Shown: piece after piece, positions 8,883-23,800 of the stretch | Numbering within the stretch: position 1 is the first letter of the stretch | Layout of the letters: every line of letters starts with the position of its first letter | Assembly: GCA_026874595.1 (NCBI GenBank) | Contig: CM049320.1 | Location: 19,415,714-19,479,713, forward strand | From: Sipunculus nudus | Taxonomy: Eukaryota; Annelida; Sipuncula; Golfingiida; Sipunculidae | Direction: 5' to 3' | DNA: 64,000 nt | Made by a program: the position numbers and the translations under genes | The notes under the pieces: model-generated | The model's database searches: none | Told to the model about the DNA's origin: nothing | What the model saw: the letters and a program-made list of their open reading frames with translations, nothing else

Positions 8883-11800
8883 TTATATTGTTATGGGGTG
8901 ACATTAAAGCAGACTGAACTGTCTCGCTAGTAAATCTTGCTGGAACACCAGACATGTGGTTCAAATTCCTGATCAGCCCAATATTTTGCCCTGAGCAATT
9001 TGTCTTCATAACAAATGGTGGCTCGTCCGGGTTGATGGCAAACTTTGTGGCTCGAAGAATGGTAGTTTGAAGTAATAGAGTAATTGCTGCCACCTATTTG
9101 AGGCTGGTTCACCAAAAGTGTGACTCCTGGGATAGTTAATCTTGTTCTTATAGCAGAAGGCTCTTAAAAGGGGGTGTGTTATGGGGTGACATAAATGCGG
9201 ACCGAACTGTCTTGCTAGTAAAGCTAGTGAAGCTAGTGAAGCTGGACATGTGTGCCACCAACGTGGGTTCGAATCCTGGTTCAGCCCAATATTTTCCCCT
9301 GAACAATTTGTCTTTGTAACAATATATGTATATATTCTTATTTACTTTTTACCAGAACTGATGTTAATTTATGCCAGCAAGTCAATGCTGAAGAATATTT
9401 ACAAAATCACAAAAGGAAGTTGTGAAGATGACAGTGCACTAAGGGCATCAAAGTGAAATGTAGTCAGAGGAGAAGGTCAATTATATATTAAATTGAGAGT
9501 TTTCCATTAAATGCACTTATTATTTGATGCATTGTTTCAACTCTTATTGAAAGCACCAATTATTGGATTATTTATGTAGTCTGTCCTGATGATTAAATTA
9601 TTTATTTAAGATGATAAATAAGTGATATTATTGGTAAAATTATGTTATATCACCACTGTGCAGGTTATGGTGCTACAGAACATATTCTTTACTTATTGCA
9701 GGACAATCCCCTGCTCAGACTTCCCCACCACCTACAGCTTCAACCCTACCACCAGTACCCCTTGGTAAGTAATGTAACTTCCTGGGTTCAGTGGTCCGGG
9801 TATTAATAAGACATATAGTCTTATACAAAGTGTTACGCTGCTTTTTATACGCCTGTCTTATGACAGGAGTGTTATGGTATACCCACGTCTGTCCGTCCTT
9901 TAACTTTTAGTGTCACCACAATATCTTACCGGGGCTTTGATGGATTTTTTGCGAAACCACCATATTATCTCACCTGAGTTTGATTGTTTGCAAAATCCAC
10001 ACATATTTGTATTGTCGCAATGTTAATCAATAAAATCTTGCCAAAATTTGAATTCCAGTGAAATCCATGCATATTTAATGAGGTCAGAGGTCACCACACT
10101 TTGGAGGCACCCTTGGTGACTTACCAAAAATCCTATGGATTTTTATCAAACTCATTACACATATTTACCAATAGAGTTTCTCACCTGAATTACTTACTTA
10201 TCAAAATTTATGCATATTTTATGAGGTCAGACGTCACCAGATACAGCATATTATGCACATTTGAGGTCCTCTTGATTAGTAGTCATTTGGTGCTCTACCT
10301 CTGGGATTTCTACTAGACTCATCCCCAATGTTGTCACTCCAGGTGAAATTTCCAATCCTACTGGATTGTAATCTCTACATATACACAGTGAAACCTTGTT
10401 GTGTCGAAGTCGAAGGGACCCTCAGTAAACTTCAACACATCTAAGATTCAACACAAGCGGGTTTTATTTGGTAATCATTTAACTGGACAATCTCCTGCTC
10501 AGACTTCGCCACCACCTACAGCTTCAACCCTACCACCAGTACCCCAGGGTAAATAATGTAACTTCCTGGGTTCAGTGGTCTGGGTATTAATTAGACATAT
10601 AGTCTTATACAAAGTGTTATGCTACTTTTTATAGGCCCTCCCGACGTCTTATGATAGAAGTGTTATGGTAAACCCACTGTCCGTTTGTCCTATAACTTTT
10701 AGTGTCACCACAATATCTTACCGGGGCTTTGATGGATTTTTTGCGAAACCACCATATTATCTCACCTGAGTTTGATTGTTTGCAAAATTCACACATATTT
10801 GTATTGTCGCAATGTTAATCAATAAAAATATTTTGCCTAAGTTTGAATTCCAGTGAAATCCATGCATATTTAATGAGGTCCGAGGTCACCAGATACAACA
10901 TATTATGCACATTTGAGGTCCTCTTGTTTTGTAGTCATTTGGTGTTCTACCTCTGATTACTCTATCTCTGATTTACTGGATCCTTCAAAATGTTGATGCC
11001 TGTTGCACACAAGCAAGACTGACTGGATTTTATGTCATGGATTTATCCCACTGAGAAAACAAAGCAACAAGCAATTAAAATTTGAAATCCATCAAAACAA
11101 CCTAAAATGCTGTCTATAATACAAATGATTATCATTAATATTAAGTCAAATCAAGGTATACTGCCAGTCCTCAGGTAAGTGCCTACTTATGGAGACAGAA
11201 AGTTGCTATGGCTACTATAAGCCTTGCTTATGCTAAATTTATTCTTCTTCATCTCCTGTTCGGGACTCTACCACCCATTAACCCCTTTCCCAGGTTGGGT
11301 AACCTGTTGAAAGAGTCCAGTATATATGTAGGGGTGTATATGTGTAAGGGCAGATGGAATATCCTAAATTGGCCCTTGGTTCAATTCCTTGTAAATGTGA
11401 ACTATTTCATTTCATACCAATTCTTTTATACATATCCCGGTATGTATATACTCTACAATTTGACATGGACCATATTCTGAGGTAAAGGACTTTATCATAG
11501 ACATTTTAGCGAAGCTTTGAGCTCATGCGATGGTGCGACATTGTGTGTCGTGTGTCGTGCGTCATGCGTCGTCTGTACGTTAACCATAGCTATTTCAAAA
11601 ACGGCAGAAGCTAGCATCACCTAATTTTTTTGCAAATAATCAGTCAACTGAAAAACTCTATCGGATTTTGTTTATTTTTTTTTGCTGACTGCATTTCTCA
11701 GATTTTATAGGGAAAAAGCTAAAAAAGCTTTAAAAATCTTCTTCTCCAAAACTGTCCAGCCAAATTGTCCAATATTTCACAGAAATGATCCCTGGAACAA

Positions 11801-14800: not shown

Positions 14801-17800
14801 CTTTTACAGGTGGACCAGTCACACAAGTAACAGACTCTGCAGGTAACACCATTCAGTCTACATATATTGAACTGACCTCTCTTTCATATTCCTTACACCT
14901 GCCCTTAAATAGATCTGTGTATATCACTAGTCTATAGTTTATAGTTTGCCCATTGATTTGTTTTCAGTTACAAAGTTGTTTAATTTAAAAAAATAATTAT
15001 CTAGTCTGTGTCATTGGTAAGACAAGTGCACCAGGTTTAATTATTTAGAAGGAAAACCAACATCAAATCTTCAAGTTGTAAGCAAAGTGAGTTTGCAAAA
15101 CATATAATTTTTGTATGTGCAGACTCATATTAATTATAGTGTAACTTCACACAGGAACAAGAAGGAACATTTTAAAAACTAAAACTGATGGCAGCAAGAA
15201 TTGTAACTAGAGGATTAATAGGAACAACATCACTGAATGGAAATGCCTCATGCATTTAGAATCAGGGAAACTCTCCCCAAAATAGAAAAAGCAAGGAAAT
15301 CCTCCTGCATTAAAAAAAATATTGGCAGCCCCAATGTTTTCCGAATTTTTCTGCCTTCCCAATGTAACAACCTGAATGGAACAAGATGTAAAAAATCTTG
15401 CAATAATTTGAGGATTTGGGCATGGTAAAAAAAGCGTTATTCCTCCTTTATGTTTGCCAATACAGGTCCCTGATACCAAATTCTTTTGTGAGAGAGATTC
15501 TCCTCTTGATGCTGTCCTTCCAGTACTTTCTGCCTTGTTTACACCTGCGTCAGAATTACCTTATCAGTAAAGTCACAACAAAAACTCCTGAGGAATGATG
15601 TATCCACAAATGTTTTAATCCCAGAAATGGGTTTACATGTCAAACCACAGAATTTTGAACCCACAAGCTGTCGCCATCATATTGATGACACAAAAATAAA
15701 TGCCATTATAGACATGGTCATTCATCAAAAGATCTTTACCACTACCTACTGGTTGCAGTGCCACCTCTAGATCTGTGATTCTGTTAGGGAAAAAGTACTC
15801 AGCAAATGATATTGCATTCAGGGTCTCCACCATGTACAAAATATTGAAAGATATTTAGGAAGCATTTTGAAAGAAAAAAATATGTGTGGCCAGGCGGATT
15901 TATAATAAAAAAGTTTACAGAACTCTTTGAGTCATGCATGATCAGCTGTGTTGATATTTTGTCAGTAAACAGACAACAAGCCATAATGTGAACATTACTG
16001 TGTAATACATAATCTTATCTATAAAAGATATAGATATAAGATATAGGTATATGGACTAAATAATATTATTTATTACTTATTATAAATGCACATCTCATAT
16101 ACGATGGCAATAATGTTATATTATTTGATAAAAAGATATTACCTGTTTATGACAAGGATTTGAGGTGATTTTTTAATACCATCCAGCTATCTGATAAATC
16201 TTTGGACTTTCTTATAGATGGGGCTTTAATGTACTTAGGAATGTTTTTCCATGTATTTATAGATTTTCATAATATTTATCCTAAATAACAGAAATTCAAC
16301 TTTTTTTAGATAGGCAAATCACAGAGAAGAAAGTGCATCTTTAAGGTGAAAAAAAGCATTAGCGGATAATGATATACTGGTAGTGCCAGTGAGTTATAAT
16401 TTATAGACATTACAACAAATTGTACTTCATTCTAAATACATAGAGTCATATCATATCATATATTCTATTATCCAGATGATACAGGTATCTCAGTTACAGG
16501 TATCTCAGTTACAGGTATCTCAGTTACAGGTATATCAGTTCAAGCAAATACACAAACCTTTAATGGCTCCCTTGGCCCTGGGGTGTAGTTAGGTGGTCAA
16601 AGAGGCCCTGGGATCAATGAAATTGATATTGTGTTCTACCCTGGATATGACAAAAGTATCAAGCATATTTCATATACATCATTTAAATCAACATAATGTA
16701 CAATTAAATATCAATTTATATTTAGAATAAAAGTTACTGTATGTATGATTGATAACATTAAGGATCATTTATAAAAATACTGCTTGTATGAACCATGTTG
16801 ATTGTGTTGTCTTATTGGTCTTCAGGCAGCTGTGTTTACCCTAATAGCTACATGAAAGCAATACCAATCTAAGAAGTTCATAACATATATGTATTATATT
16901 TATCATGTCACTATATGTTGTATAGCAATGTGTCTTATGTGTCTTTATGTAACTTTAGTGTTATTAAGTATTATTTCATCATGTTACATCATATTATGTA
17001 AAAATGTATCATGATTTATATGTCATTGTGTTACATAGATTCTGCCGGGTCGCGAGGTGCAGTACAGCAGCCAGCGCACAGAAACAGAGAAACTTATGAT
17101 AATGCTGAACCAGAAACAAGACAGAACCAGAATCAGGTGACATCTGTTACAGATGCTGTGCAGAACCTCCAAATTGCTGTGACAGAAAGAGATGGGGTCA
17201 TTCAGTGCACTAAACAATTCTATGAACATCATATGAATACAAAGAAAGTGAGTATGATAGTCTGAGATAATGATATAAATATGTTAATCTCAACATTAAG
17301 TCTCCTGTATTTTTGTGAAATATGGTTGGCACCACCATCTTCTACATCCCTCTTCTCCTCAGACATTGGAGCTACGGGTCCTTAGTTTGAATTCCAGCAG
17401 TGCCTTAGTGTCATATTAGTGAAATCTTGCTAGAATCTCATCTCAGAGATTTGCACTAATGTCTTCATGACAGGTTATGACTACTAGATTATTCCTGGTC
17501 CCTTGAATATAAACCTGAAATCCAGAAGGCTTAATAGTAACATTTTATTCTTATCATATTTTTATCTTCATCTTTGTTCACTAGGCAGTGGCACCAGCAT
17601 GATCTTCACCAATCCTTCACAAAAAAAGGGGGGAAAACAGATTCACCACAAGTGACTGTGAATAAGTATATCCATAATATGCATTATAGTTCTTGCTGTC
17701 AGCTGAGCATCTTGACCCATGGGTTACTGTTTGTATATATAAATAATTTTGCCAATTACAGTAAAGTTTGTGAGACTAACATCCACCTGAAAAGCTGAAT

Positions 17801-20800
17801 GTAAGGTATATATATGTAAACGGACACATAAAACTGTTCCTACTGACCCTGCTAGTGAAGCTTGCTTTATTAGCGAAGCGGTAGAATATGTGTGACTTAT
17901 GTGTCACAGGTTACGGGTTCAAACCCACATTCGGACCTGGTTTCTATTTTCACCCGTTACAGATTGTGGCAGCGGTGGGATCCGGGGAGTTGGGGTCGTG
18001 GCATGATGCCCCACCCAATTCATGTGTGTGACCCCCGGGATAGATCCCACTTTCTGGGGACAGAACGTCCTCGGAGAGGGGATGAATGTAAACGGACACA
18101 TAAAACCGTTCCTACTGACCTTGCTAGTGAATCTTGCTTTATTAGTGAAGCGGTAGAATATGTGTGACTTATGTGTCACAGGTTACGGGTTCAAACCCAC
18201 ATTCGGACCTGGTTTCTATTTTCACCCGTTACAAATTGTGGCAGCGGTGGGATCCGGGGAGTTGGGGTCGTGGCATGATGCCCCACCCAATTCATGTGTG
18301 TGACCCCCGGGATAGATCCCACTTTCTGGGGACAGAACGTCCTCGGAGAGGGGATGAATGTAAACGGACACATAAAACCGTTCCTACTGACCTTGCTAGT
18401 GAATCTTGCTTTATTAGCGAAGCGGTAGAGCGTCTGACTTGTGTGTCACAGGTTATGGGTTCGAACCCACATTCGGACCTGGTTTCTATTTTCACCCATT
18501 ACATATATATATAAATGTTATTCTGATATTCACTTTTATTATACAGTCTTACCCAGTGTCTTCATCACCAAAGGGAGTTGCTCTGATTGTGAATATAACA
18601 GAAGTCCGTGAACCATCAGGAGAGATCAAGGGCCGCAGTGGGAGTAAAACTGATCGAAAGTTGATGATGGACTTGTTTAGAGACCTAGATTACCAAGTAT
18701 GTGTGTACGAAGATGTAGATCCAGAGGTAAGATTATGTTGGTGATGTTGATCTTAAAACATGACCTAGTGAAACCTAGTGGTAGGATGTAACCTGGTGGT
18801 AGGATGTGACCTAGTGGTAGGATGTAACCTGGTGGTAGGATGAAACCTGGTGGTAGGATGTAACCTAGTGGTAGGATGTAACCTGGTGGTAGGATGTGAC
18901 CTAGTGGTAGGATGTAACCTGGTGGTAGGATGAAACCTGGTGGTAGGATGTAACCTAGTGGTAGGATGTAACCTAGTGGTAGGACGTGACCTAGTGGTAG
19001 GATGTAACCTGGTGGTAGGATGAAACCTGGTGGTAGGATGTGACCTAGTGTTAGGATGTAACCTGGTGGTAGGATGTAACCTGGTGGTAGGATGTAACCT
19101 AGTGGTAGGATGTAACCTAGGTAGGATGTGACCTAGTGGTAGGATGTAACCTGGTGGTAGGATGTAACCTGGTGGTAGGATGTGACCTAGTGGTAGGATG
19201 TAACCTGGTGGTAGGATGTGACCTTGTTGTAGGATGTAACCTGGTGGTAGGATGTGACCAAATGGTAGGATGTAATCTAATGGTAGGATGTGACCTAATG
19301 GTAGGATGTAACCTAATGGTAGGATGTGACCTTGTTGTAGGATGTAAACTAGTGGTAGGATGTAACCTAATTGTAGGATGTAAACTAGTGGTAGGATGTG
19401 ACCTAATGTTGTAACCTAGTTGTAGGTTGTAACCTAGTGGTAGGATGTAACCTAATGGTAGGATGTAACCTAATTGTAGGATGTAACCCAGTGGTAGGAT
19501 GTAACCTATTAGCAGGATGTAACCTAATGGCAGGATGTAACCTAACGGCAGGATGTAACCTAATGGCAGGATGTAACCTAGTATTAGGATGTAACCAAGC
19601 GGTGGGCTGTAACCTAATGGTAGGATGTAACCTAATGGTAGGATGTAACCCGGTGGTATGATGTAACCTAATGGAGGCTGTAACCTAATGGCAGGATGTA
19701 ACCTAGTGGTAGCATGTTACGTAGTGGTAGGCGGTAACCTAAAGGTAGGATGTAACCTAATGGTAGGATGTAACCTAATGGTAGGATGTAATCTAGGGTG
19801 AGGATGTAACCTATTAGCAGTATGTAACCTAATGGCAGGATGTAACCAAATGGCAGGATGTAACCTAATAGTAGGATGTAACCTAGTGGTAGGATGTAAC
19901 CTAATGGTAGGATGTAATCTAGGGTAAGGAAGTGACCCGGTGGTAGGATGTAACCTAGTGGTAGGATGTAACCTAATTCTAGAATGTAACCAAGTGGTTG
20001 GCTGTAACCTAGTGGTAGGCTGAAACCTAGTGTTAGGCTGTAACCTAATTGTAGAATGTAACCTAGTGGTAGGCTGTAACCTAATGGCAGGATGTAACCT
20101 AGTGGTAGGCTGTAACCTAATGGCAGGATGTAACCTAGTGGTTGGCTGTAACCTAGTGGTAGGCTGTAACCTAGTGGTAGGCTGTAACCTAATGGCAGGA
20201 TGTAACCTAGTGGTAGGCTGAAACCTAGTGTTAGGCTGTAACCTAATTGTAGGATGTAACCTAGTAGTAGGTTGTAACCTAGTGGTAGGCTGTAACCTAA
20301 TGGTAGGATGTAAACTAGTGGTAGCATGTTACCTAGTGGTAGGCAGTAACCTAATGGTAGGATGTAACCTAATGGTAGGATGTAGCCATAATGGTAAGAT
20401 GTAACCTTTTTGTAGGATGTGACCTTGTGATTAAGGTGTTGGATTTCTGAGCAGGAGGTCCTGACTTCAATCCCTGTTGATACCTTAAAATAAAATGGAA
20501 TGGTGAAATCTCAGTTTAACCTTGGAAGTTTACTCTAATGCCTTTATGAAAGGTTTTAGGGAACTGGATTATTCATGATCTCATGCATATAAAACCAGAA
20601 ATCAAGAAGGAATAAAAAATCCTTCTAATCTTGTGGTTACCTACATTCTCTGCATATGCCACAAACAGACAGAGAGTAAAGGACCTATCCTTAAAAACAT
20701 CTTGTCCCCATTTATGTCAATGTGCACTTTTTAACTTATCTGAATTTTAATCATGCTGAACTAAAATAATAATTTTGTTATCAAAATGATCTGTTTTATC

Positions 20801-23800
20801 CAGACGTACTGAAACGATTAGTAATTGATCACCAACAGGTTGGCTCAGTTTGATAATGATATAGGAATTCACTCCAACAGCTATCAAAGATATCACAGTT
20901 TATGTGGCAGCAGGGGCTTATCAATGCACTTTCAATTTCTTTGCAGAAATTCAGGTGTGCTCTGGATAAGTTTGTTAAGAAAGCTGTCAACATGAAGGCC
21001 TCTAGTATCTTTATGGTATTAATGTCCCATGGAGGAACACGTGCGAACAGGCAGTTTATATGCCTGAATGATGGGACAAATTTTTACGTCAGAGAAACAA
21101 TCGAAAAGTACTTCGGTTCAAGAGCAGCTGGTGCCCTGGCTAAAATACCAAAAGTGTTCATCATCCAGGCATGTCAAGGAGGTAAGAAAAAGGTCAAAGG
21201 TCAAATGAACATTTCTTGTACATAATACTTCTGGTATTATTCCTGTGACATCCAGGTTTTAGTGTGTATACAAAATGGCAGCCCCAGGAGCAATAAACCT
21301 GCAAGGGTTCAATAAGGGTGAAGGGATGTAACACAAAAGTTCTCTGCAGAGAGAGATTGGTGACGAGGTGATGTGTATTGGCAAAGTTTACAGCTGTATA
21401 ATACCTTTGTTACCACACCCAAATCTTCAAATTACAGTAGGATGTATTGGTTTATGCATAGTCAGCAAATTTATGCTAATATGGATAATAATATATCTGA
21501 GCAAATATTTACCAAATGAACTGACGTGATTTGAATGAATTAAACTATACTCCAATGGGCAGTTGAGTACAGTTCCCAGTTCTTATGTGTGCAGACAAAA
21601 TGGCATTTTAATAACAGTCACAGACAGTTTAAAATGAATCACAAATTATCATATTTTTAATCTACAGAGCCTGCCCACTGGTGGTTCATGAATGATGTGA
21701 TGCTAACTTTGTAGCAGATCTGTTAAAGTGTTTCAGTGAGAGATAAAATAGTGCATTGTGTTAATTCTGAACAAGTTAGCATTAACAATATAACTCAAAA
21801 TTCATTCAACAGATTTCTTTGAAATTCTGTTTAGTTACAGATTAGGGTCAGTCAACAGAGTCTGTTTAAATCGGGTCATAACCTTTTCTATGAGTGTGGA
21901 ATTAACTTTGAATAAAACTTATAAATGCACAAAAAAATGGTTGTATGTCCTTAAAAACTTAAAAATTCTGCCTATGATGAATCTGTGTCAATAACTCTTC
22001 AATATTTACAGATTCTGCTGACACAGGGGTTAAAATCGAAGAACGATTGTTTGAATCCCAGCAGGATACCATTGTAGTAAAACGGGAGTCACCACCAGGA
22101 CCTTTTGAAAGAGTTGCTTCATTTCAGGACTACTTCTTTGCCAATGCTACTCAGCCAAGTAAGTATGTAAAAAAGCATACATTCTAGTGCCCCTCATCAT
22201 GAAAACTACAGGTATTCAATACTTTTCAGATAATTTGAACTACAGCCATACTGAGGTTTAGGGAAGGGTTTGTGTCTGCTGATCTTCTGTCCCTTGGATG
22301 ATATTCAGGCCTTTATAAAATAAACTGATAGGGGCCTGTGAGTCATGATACAAGTCATAATAAAACATCAATTCCAATGGTCGGGTCAAAATATTCGCTG
22401 TGTGGTATTATTTGACATCAGAGGCTTATATTGTCATGTTTTAATTGCTAAATAAAGAAAAAATGTTGTTGCACCAAATTTGTAGTGGCTACCATGGCAG
22501 GGGGAACGGAAGTTTGATGCAGTTTCAGCTACAACAGTTTTCGATGTCATGATGGACAGAGAAAGCTTTCCAAGTAAAATCAGCCACGCTTTTAATAAAA
22601 ACTGTTTGAATACACATAATTCAGCTGTGAATATTATTTTTTTTATTTTTCCTAACAGCATTATGTCACTTTAATCTCACTTTGGAAAAAATGACAGCTC
22701 AACAAGTAGATGAAAATGAAAAAGTACTGTTATAAATGGGGTGCACACTATATATTATAGAATTGATCCAAACTGTATAGCTTGTACTGTCACCTTAATG
22801 TCTTCTGTTAATTAAAAATTTATGTTTGGATAGCAGGCTACTACTAGTCTGTTCCATCCCCTCATAACCACCTATTTTGTGCTGGGAAAATGTTATTAAA
22901 ATTGGTAATATATAATAGATAATTTATGGACCTAATACGGAAAATAAACACCTACCTTACACAATATTTAAGAAACATAATAATTTTTAAAGTATGATGA
23001 AAACAGTGTACTTTTTACAACATGTCAGGTCACCTACAACATATCCCTCATGGTGGTCCAGATCATTGATCCCAATCAAAAAGGGCCTCAGCTGACAGCA
23101 GCTGATTGGATGATGTTGCTCTAACAAATATGATTAGCCGAACAAAGATGGTTACTCAAGTAGAAACACATCAGATCTGTCAGGTCATTATCAAAAAAGT
23201 TTGTAAAACCTAAACTGGAAATTTATTTTATAATTATTGGTTGCCATATTTGGTTGTCACTTCCATATTCAGCTTAAGAGGAAATATTACAAAAAATAAC
23301 ATTTTAAGAAAATTATCTCGTATAAGTTATATCCAGATCCTGATGAAAAATTACAAACATTTAACAAATGAGATCTGGAATGACTAGTGTATCACTAGGT
23401 AATGATTGTACCTGCCAACATACAGCTTCAGACATAACAACGGGTAAATTGAATAAAAATGCAATGTCAGTTTATCTTCTTCATGGCCAGTTTTGACACC
23501 CAGCAAATCATCCCAAACCTGAATTAAAGGTCTGACAGTAACAAAATAAATACACTTTCATGTTGCTCAGTTGGCTGTAGCAAAACTTTGATAATTTTAT
23601 TTATTTTATAAGATCAGTGCTGCCACCTTTAATTCCATTTTCATTGAATTATTCTTGAGCCAGACACATAATATTCATCACATAGCAGTCACATATGTTG
23701 TATTGAATTGTAAATGTAAATTCATTATTGGACTTAAGTCAGACATGTTTATCATCCTCACGACCAGTTTGAACTAATGTCAGCAAATCATTTTTTAAAT

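Follow-up and report, generated by a model that had tools for sequence, protein, structure and literature searches.

The 64-kb stretch of Sipunculus nudus DNA analysed here (hereafter, the window) carries a tandem array of TRIMs in whose LTRs tRNA-type promoter boxes are embedded, and the array probably belongs to a Helenus-type TRIM (TRIMp3), a non-coding element of about 414 bp in which a degenerate tRNA within the LTR would act as an internal pol III promoter. A preliminary description had flagged the boxes in the LTR at 18359-18503 and proposed a Cassandra-like design, with a tRNA instead of 5S, in a mollusc. The observation is confirmed, and the Cassandra-like reading is borne out by the sequence, the copy number, the primer site, the polypurine tract and the target duplications; two parts of it fell, namely the mollusc host, the animal being a sipunculan annelid, and the idea that such a design was undescribed.

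The array spans 17815-18503 in the order LTR-INT-LTR-INT-LTR, with a TATA target duplication on each flank. Its features, all on the plus strand, are the following:

17811..17814, plus strand: left TATA, 4-bp target duplication
17815..17961, plus strand: family-1 LTR 1, 147 bp, with box A at 17871-17881 and box B at 17916-17926, both strict and 34 bp apart
17962..18086, plus strand: internal domain 1, 125 bp, with a tRNA-Leu-type primer site at 17964-17981 and a polypurine tract at about 18073-18086
18087..18233, plus strand: family-1 LTR 2, 147 bp, with a box A-like stretch at 18143-18153 (one mismatch to strict box A), box B at 18188-18198 and TTTT at 18219-18222
18234..18358, plus strand: internal domain 2, 125 bp, with the primer site at 18236-18253 and a polypurine tract at about 18345-18358
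18359..18503, plus strand: family-1 LTR 3, the feature originally flagged, 145 bp, TGTAA...TTACA
18415..18425, plus strand: box A of LTR 3, TAGCGAAGCGG, strict consensus match
18458..18468, plus strand: box B of LTR 3, GGTTCGAACCC, strict consensus match
18489..18492, plus strand: TTTT in LTR 3, a possible pol III terminator whose placement alone is no better than chance
18504..18507, plus strand: right TATA, 4-bp target duplication

Strict boxes were scored against the consensus of tRNA promoters, TRGCNNARYGG for box A and GGTTCRANYCC for box B. The two boxes of LTR 3 lie 32 bp apart, a spacing inside the range of 30-40 bp stated in a review for type 2 promoters of pol III (PMC7279448). Chance is a poor explanation of the pair, because simulations hardly ever yield one: a strict A+B pair appeared in none of 100 simulated 64-kb sequences and in one of 20000 simulations at LTR composition. 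The placement of TTTT was rejected as evidence of pol III, since 55% of simulations have at most one TTTT per unit. The stretch is not a tRNA gene in the sense of a cloverleaf recognised by tRNA models: ARAGORN found no tRNA gene in the whole window, and Rfam, run on 17700-18600 at E<=1, returned neither a tRNA nor a 5S rRNA match. Two Rfam H19_2 matches in the same interval (E 0.0068 and 0.055) were well below the gathering score and were taken as spurious. Around the array, a long 18-bp tandem repeat lies directly 3' of it, at 18769-20430, and caspase-like coding stretches recognised by eye (about 17046-21181) flank it on both sides, which suggests that the array may be intronic.

The family to which the array belongs (family 1) is dispersed in the genome. 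A search with window positions 18200-18700 gave 772 candidates, the best 40 of which were scored, and 39 fetched loci together with the window copy form a set of 40 loci; truncated LTR pieces were left out of the LTR counts in this family and in the second one described below. The commonest form is LTR-INT-LTR, and 5 of the 40 loci have three or four LTRs in the same orientation. With LTRs of 145 bp and an internal domain of 124-125 bp, the element stays under 1000 bp, has two LTRs and, judging from its length, is non-coding, as expected of a TRIM. The 4-bp target duplications expected in animals are present at 27 of the 40 loci (by eye, 20 are TATA and 7 are other sequences). On average, the 85 full-length LTRs are 97.2% identical to their majority; the outermost two LTRs of a locus show a median difference of 1.4%, and no difference in 9 of the 40 loci, a low divergence that points to a young family. 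Strict box A is found in 82 of the 85 LTRs, strict box B in 84, both at proper spacing in 81 and TTTT in 79, and neither AATAAA nor ATTAAA occurs in any of them. In box A just one column falls below 85% identity, and there the consensus itself permits either A or G (60 A, 25 G). Neither the LTR nor the internal domain had a match in a 200-kb genome sample made up of 20 evenly placed fixed stretches, and among 136 LTR-sized direct repeat pairs in this sample plus the window, two had box B at no more than one mismatch, namely the array and the second TRIM of the window described below.

These counts bear directly on the simplest alternatives. A SINE inserted into one LTR before the array formed, which the preliminary description had named as a possible refutation, is excluded because the 85 LTRs from 40 loci align across the LTR and 81 of them keep both boxes. 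A chance match, or a single local SINE insertion into the 17815-18503 array, is likewise refuted by the dispersed copies: the tRNA-like stretch taken by itself gave 536 candidates, the best 40 of which all match at 95-100%, and these copies, the simulations and the recurrence of the boxes leave this explanation with practically no credit.

A scan for tRNA-type boxes revealed a second TRIM of the same design in the same window (family 2):

8889..9321, plus strand: family-2 TRIM, with a partly deleted LTR at 8889-9013, the internal domain at 9014-9176 and an LTR at 9177-9321
9266-9276, plus strand: box B in the LTR 9177-9321
9016-9033, plus strand: primer site, taken as Pro-type
8885-8888 and 9322-9325, plus strand: ATAT duplication around the element

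This family is larger, with 3074 candidates genome-wide, and the full-length rows among the best 40 scored are 71-80% identical to the window copy; window positions 9101-9500 found no match in the 20 evenly placed stretches of the 200-kb sample. Twenty of its loci were fetched. The LTR is about 156 bp long, and the majority of 41 LTRs has TAGCGAAGCGG as box A at position 58 and GGTTCGAATCC as box B at position 101, each one base further than in the family-1 LTR (57 and 100). A mean identity to the majority of 90.8% indicates that family 2 is older than family 1, and its 41 LTRs have strict box A in 16 cases, box B in 27, TTTT in 30 and AATAAA or ATTAAA in one. Duplications of 4 bp were seen at 8 of 20 loci, a count that excludes the remaining one of the 21 family-2 loci (L079, with one LTR incomplete). 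The primer site begins AATGGGGGCTCGTCC in 12 of 23 internal copies, which we take to be of the tRNA-Pro type.

The two families allow the conservation of the boxes to be considered at two levels, and the expectation of the preliminary description, that the boxes would be conserved beyond their surroundings, holds at one of them only. Within family 1, box B is high in conservation (3.7% of 11-bp windows are as good) and box A is not (82%); within family 2 the value for box B is 14%, and 98.6% of 11-bp windows are at least as good as box A, which is among the least conserved stretches of the LTR. With CpG excluded, no excess conservation of the boxes is found in either family, and within-family conservation was rejected as a sign of selection. 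This test reveals little on the source elements, because copies decay freely after insertion. Between families, instead, the LTR majorities are 72% identical overall and the boxes agree at 21 of 22 bases (11/11 in box A and 10/11 in the box B window, 99-109), compared with 18/21 in the stretch before box A, 20/31 between the boxes, 23/35 in U3 and 6/11 in U5. Random window pairs equal the identity of the boxes in about 1.3% of draws, a figure slightly too low because overlapping random windows were counted as failures, and this result gives modest support to selection on a putative promoter. Upstream of the boxes, too, the LTRs of the two families resemble each other (score 47, against a maximum of 23 in 1000 simulations), from which we infer a common ancestor of the two families and a switch of the primer tRNA; their internal domains have one 18-bp motif in common, identical at 16 of 18 positions.

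As to where the tRNA-like stretch came from, the family-1 version shares 45 of 65 aligned bases with a host tRNA-Lys (L071) and 43 of 66 with the tRNA-like core of another dispersed repeat (L052), and in neither case was any of 2000 simulations as good. The majority of family 2 also resembles tRNA-Lys better than chance, the window copy of that family alone doing no better than chance (761 of 2000 simulations). Since tRNA-Lys is the only host tRNA compared, a different tRNA parent is possible. A 14-mer, AACGTCTGACTTGT, is common to family 1 and five of nine aligned copies of the L052 repeat. In that repeat the tRNA-like core (L052:4230-4450) sits within a larger, AACCAA-rich dispersed repeat with 267 candidates, and it was rejected as a stand-alone SINE because similarity continues across the 680-bp stretches compared in the nine aligned copies. 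The genome also holds a tandem array of tRNA-Lys(TTT) genes at C9:40605435-40699894, with a spacing of about 1.67-1.68 kb or multiples.

Two further explanations of the tRNA-like stretch have to be weighed against pol III transcription. The elements might be transcribed by pol II as ordinary TRIMs are, the tRNA-like stretch being a passenger left by a SINE that had long ago inserted into the founder LTR and become fixed there. The boxes without excess conservation inside families speak for this explanation, and so do two other animal TRIMs with 4-bp duplications and a primer site of the Leu type, PbTRIM, which has a TATA box (PMC3532108), and ta-TRIM, which is discussed alongside pol II LTRs. 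The near identity of the boxes between families that differ at more than a quarter of their positions overall tells against a passenger, as do the absence of AATAAA and ATTAAA from the 85 family-1 LTRs and the persistence of the boxes while the tRNA fold is largely gone: in a manual comparison, the stems of the D, anticodon and T arms of the stretch are mostly broken and the boxes intact. We therefore regard pol II transcription with a passenger tRNA as rather unlikely.

The stretch might otherwise be kept for another task, for example as a tRNA mimic binding reverse transcriptase or Gag, or for chromatin insulation. Its predicted RNA fold, somewhat better than that of shuffled sequences (z -2.2; 6 of 200 as good), would agree with such a role; however, the fold consists of three hairpins rather than a cloverleaf, ARAGORN and Rfam fail to recognise the stretch as a tRNA, and the parts best shared between the families are the promoter boxes and the stretch preceding box A, so that a task of this kind appears quite improbable.

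The family-1 primer site, TGGTGGCAGCGGTGGGAT, occurs in 39 of the 48 internal copies and is complementary to the final 18 bases of the host tRNA-Leu including CCA, and, as described, the internal domain also carries a polypurine tract. The 3' end of the host tRNA-Leu has 51 exact matches in the genome (control 0), and the 17 examined comprise 12 complete tRNA-Leu genes recognised by ARAGORN (6 AAG, 6 TAG), one 3' fragment and four copies with CCA. A genome search with CCA attached to the tRNA-Leu end found exactly those four (control 0), so that the remaining 47 matches are without CCA. Three of the four CCA-bearing copies lie directly 3' of family-1 LTR ends (L022, L119 and L120), and the fourth (L121) adjoins an unrelated LTR-like repeat:

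L022:1002-1060: tRNA-Leu copy of 58 bases from the 3' end, 1 mismatch, ending a three-LTR array
L119, about 448-491: tRNA-Leu copy of 47 bases, 1 mismatch, in the internal domain of an otherwise complete LTR-INT-LTR
L120:337-390: tRNA-Leu copy of 54 bases, 0 mismatches to the TAG form, after one LTR, its last bases falling in a T run
L121:383-409: tRNA-Leu copy of 27 bases, 1 mismatch

Three LTR ends that run into 47-58 bases of CCA-tailed tRNA-Leu argue strongly that tRNA-Leu primes the reverse transcription of family 1. In our own numbering of the tRNA, the L119 copy ends just before G37 and the L022 copy just before position 26, whose modification (m2,2G) is a block to reverse transcription. 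According to a review, plus-strand strong-stop DNA normally ends before m1A58, with a minor product ending at position 37, and m1G37 is found in tRNAs reading C-starting codons (PMC13191261); the captured copies fit an extended plus-strand strong-stop DNA made from mature tRNA-Leu. The lone mismatch of L022 is at the wobble base, a G in the copy versus A (AAG) or T (TAG) in the genes, and looks like a read-out of inosine, but one mismatch in 58 could be an ordinary mutation; in the work that the same review cites, I34 exceeded 90% in tRNA-Leu(AAG). By title, none of the literature matches listed is an earlier report of captured primer-tRNA copies. The LTR-like repeat at L121 (C2:86311950-86312750) combines a Leu primer site with AATAAA motifs and may be an LTR element transcribed by pol II, of a kind able to supply proteins. 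The genome has a tRNA-Leu gene cluster at C5:52590729-52636311, with AAG and TAG forms among the genes examined; the sole ARAGORN tRNA-Leu call in the 200-kb sample (L060) was examined and set aside, and bacterial-looking tRNAs on the small contigs C115, C121 and C61 (L068, L069 and L072) may stem from a symbiont or from contamination of the assembly.

Under the preferred, pol III-driven reading, boxes A and B of the 5' LTR would recruit pol III, and the RNA would start slightly upstream of box A, near LTR base 40-50. Part of the transcripts would pass the first TTTT and stop at that of the next LTR, and an R region bounded by the pol III start and stop would make a poly(A) signal unnecessary. 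As the sequence supports, mature tRNA-Leu primes reverse transcription at the site adjoining the LTR, the polypurine tract lies ahead of the 3' LTR, and integration yields the 4-bp duplications. Proteins would be supplied in trans by an autonomous Gypsy-type element, and multi-LTR arrays may arise by recombination or template switching. A search for an autonomous partner by means of the internal domain returned, among the best 40 of 212 candidates, near full-length internal domains only. In its fullest form, which we advance tentatively and with somewhat less than an even chance of being right, this would be an LTR retrotransposon driven by pol III, its R region delimited by a pol III start and a TTTT stop rather than by cap and poly(A), with two related families keeping the promoter and differing in primer tRNA (Leu and Pro), and with integrated primer copies that extend past A58, one of them with an inosine-like wobble G, as a record that a mature tRNA was reverse-transcribed with its modifications in place.

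Several known systems share part of this design. Cassandra of plants is likewise a TRIM whose LTR contains a pol III promoter and which forms tandem arrays, but its promoter is that of 5S rRNA, in contrast with the tRNA-type boxes found here (PMC7215508). The biv-TRIM of bivalves is similarly small, with solo and tandem forms in lophotrochozoan hosts, and differs in its TDRs of 202-218 bp and in a primer site that is not clear, and the text available mentions no pol III promoter (PMC6934838). PbTRIM, from an ant, also has a primer site of the Leu type and 4-bp duplications, with ATAT the commonest, and is set apart by the pol II type of its TATA-box promoter (PMC3532108). A tRNA-derived SINE stands alone, without LTRs or primer site, unlike the boxes described here, which lie in paired LTRs accompanied by a primer site and 4-bp duplications.

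The closest counterpart is Helenus, the tRNA-promoter TRIM that Kojima described in 2024 and of which pteriomorph bivalves have 51 families (PMC10886601), so that the design does have a described case in molluscs, contrary to what the preliminary description had supposed. Kojima reports Helenus in six animal phyla, infers Gypsy elements as the mobilisers of the animal families and regards the pol III promoter function as unproven. As in Helenus, both LTRs contain a tRNA-like stretch that carries boxes A and B, and the element further has a primer site complementary to the 3' end of a tRNA, a polypurine tract and, in animals, 4-bp duplications, and tandem arrays are known there for one fish family; this likeness rests on described features rather than on sequence letters. 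The Leu primer of family 1 is listed there for hymenopteran and vertebrate families and not for bivalves, whereas the Pro type of family 2 is in the bivalve list. The literature from 2023 on TRIMp3/Helenus comprised, among the matches listed, Kojima 2024 and a 2026 meeting report, and no annelid tRNA-promoter TRIM was among the matches listed in this or the wider literature searches; a first case in annelids is provisional, because Repbase and most subscription papers lie outside this search. Within a kind already known, the Sipunculus nudus case looks new: Annelida, in which this sipunculan is placed (PMC10212961), is absent from the table of PMC10886601, and tRNA-promoter TRIMs would thus be extended to annelids. 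A genome with two related families that have the same promoter boxes but different primer tRNAs makes the pol III-dependent life of an LTR element directly testable, and the captured tRNA-Leu copies are evidence, preserved in the genome, of exactly which primer is used and hint at its modification state.
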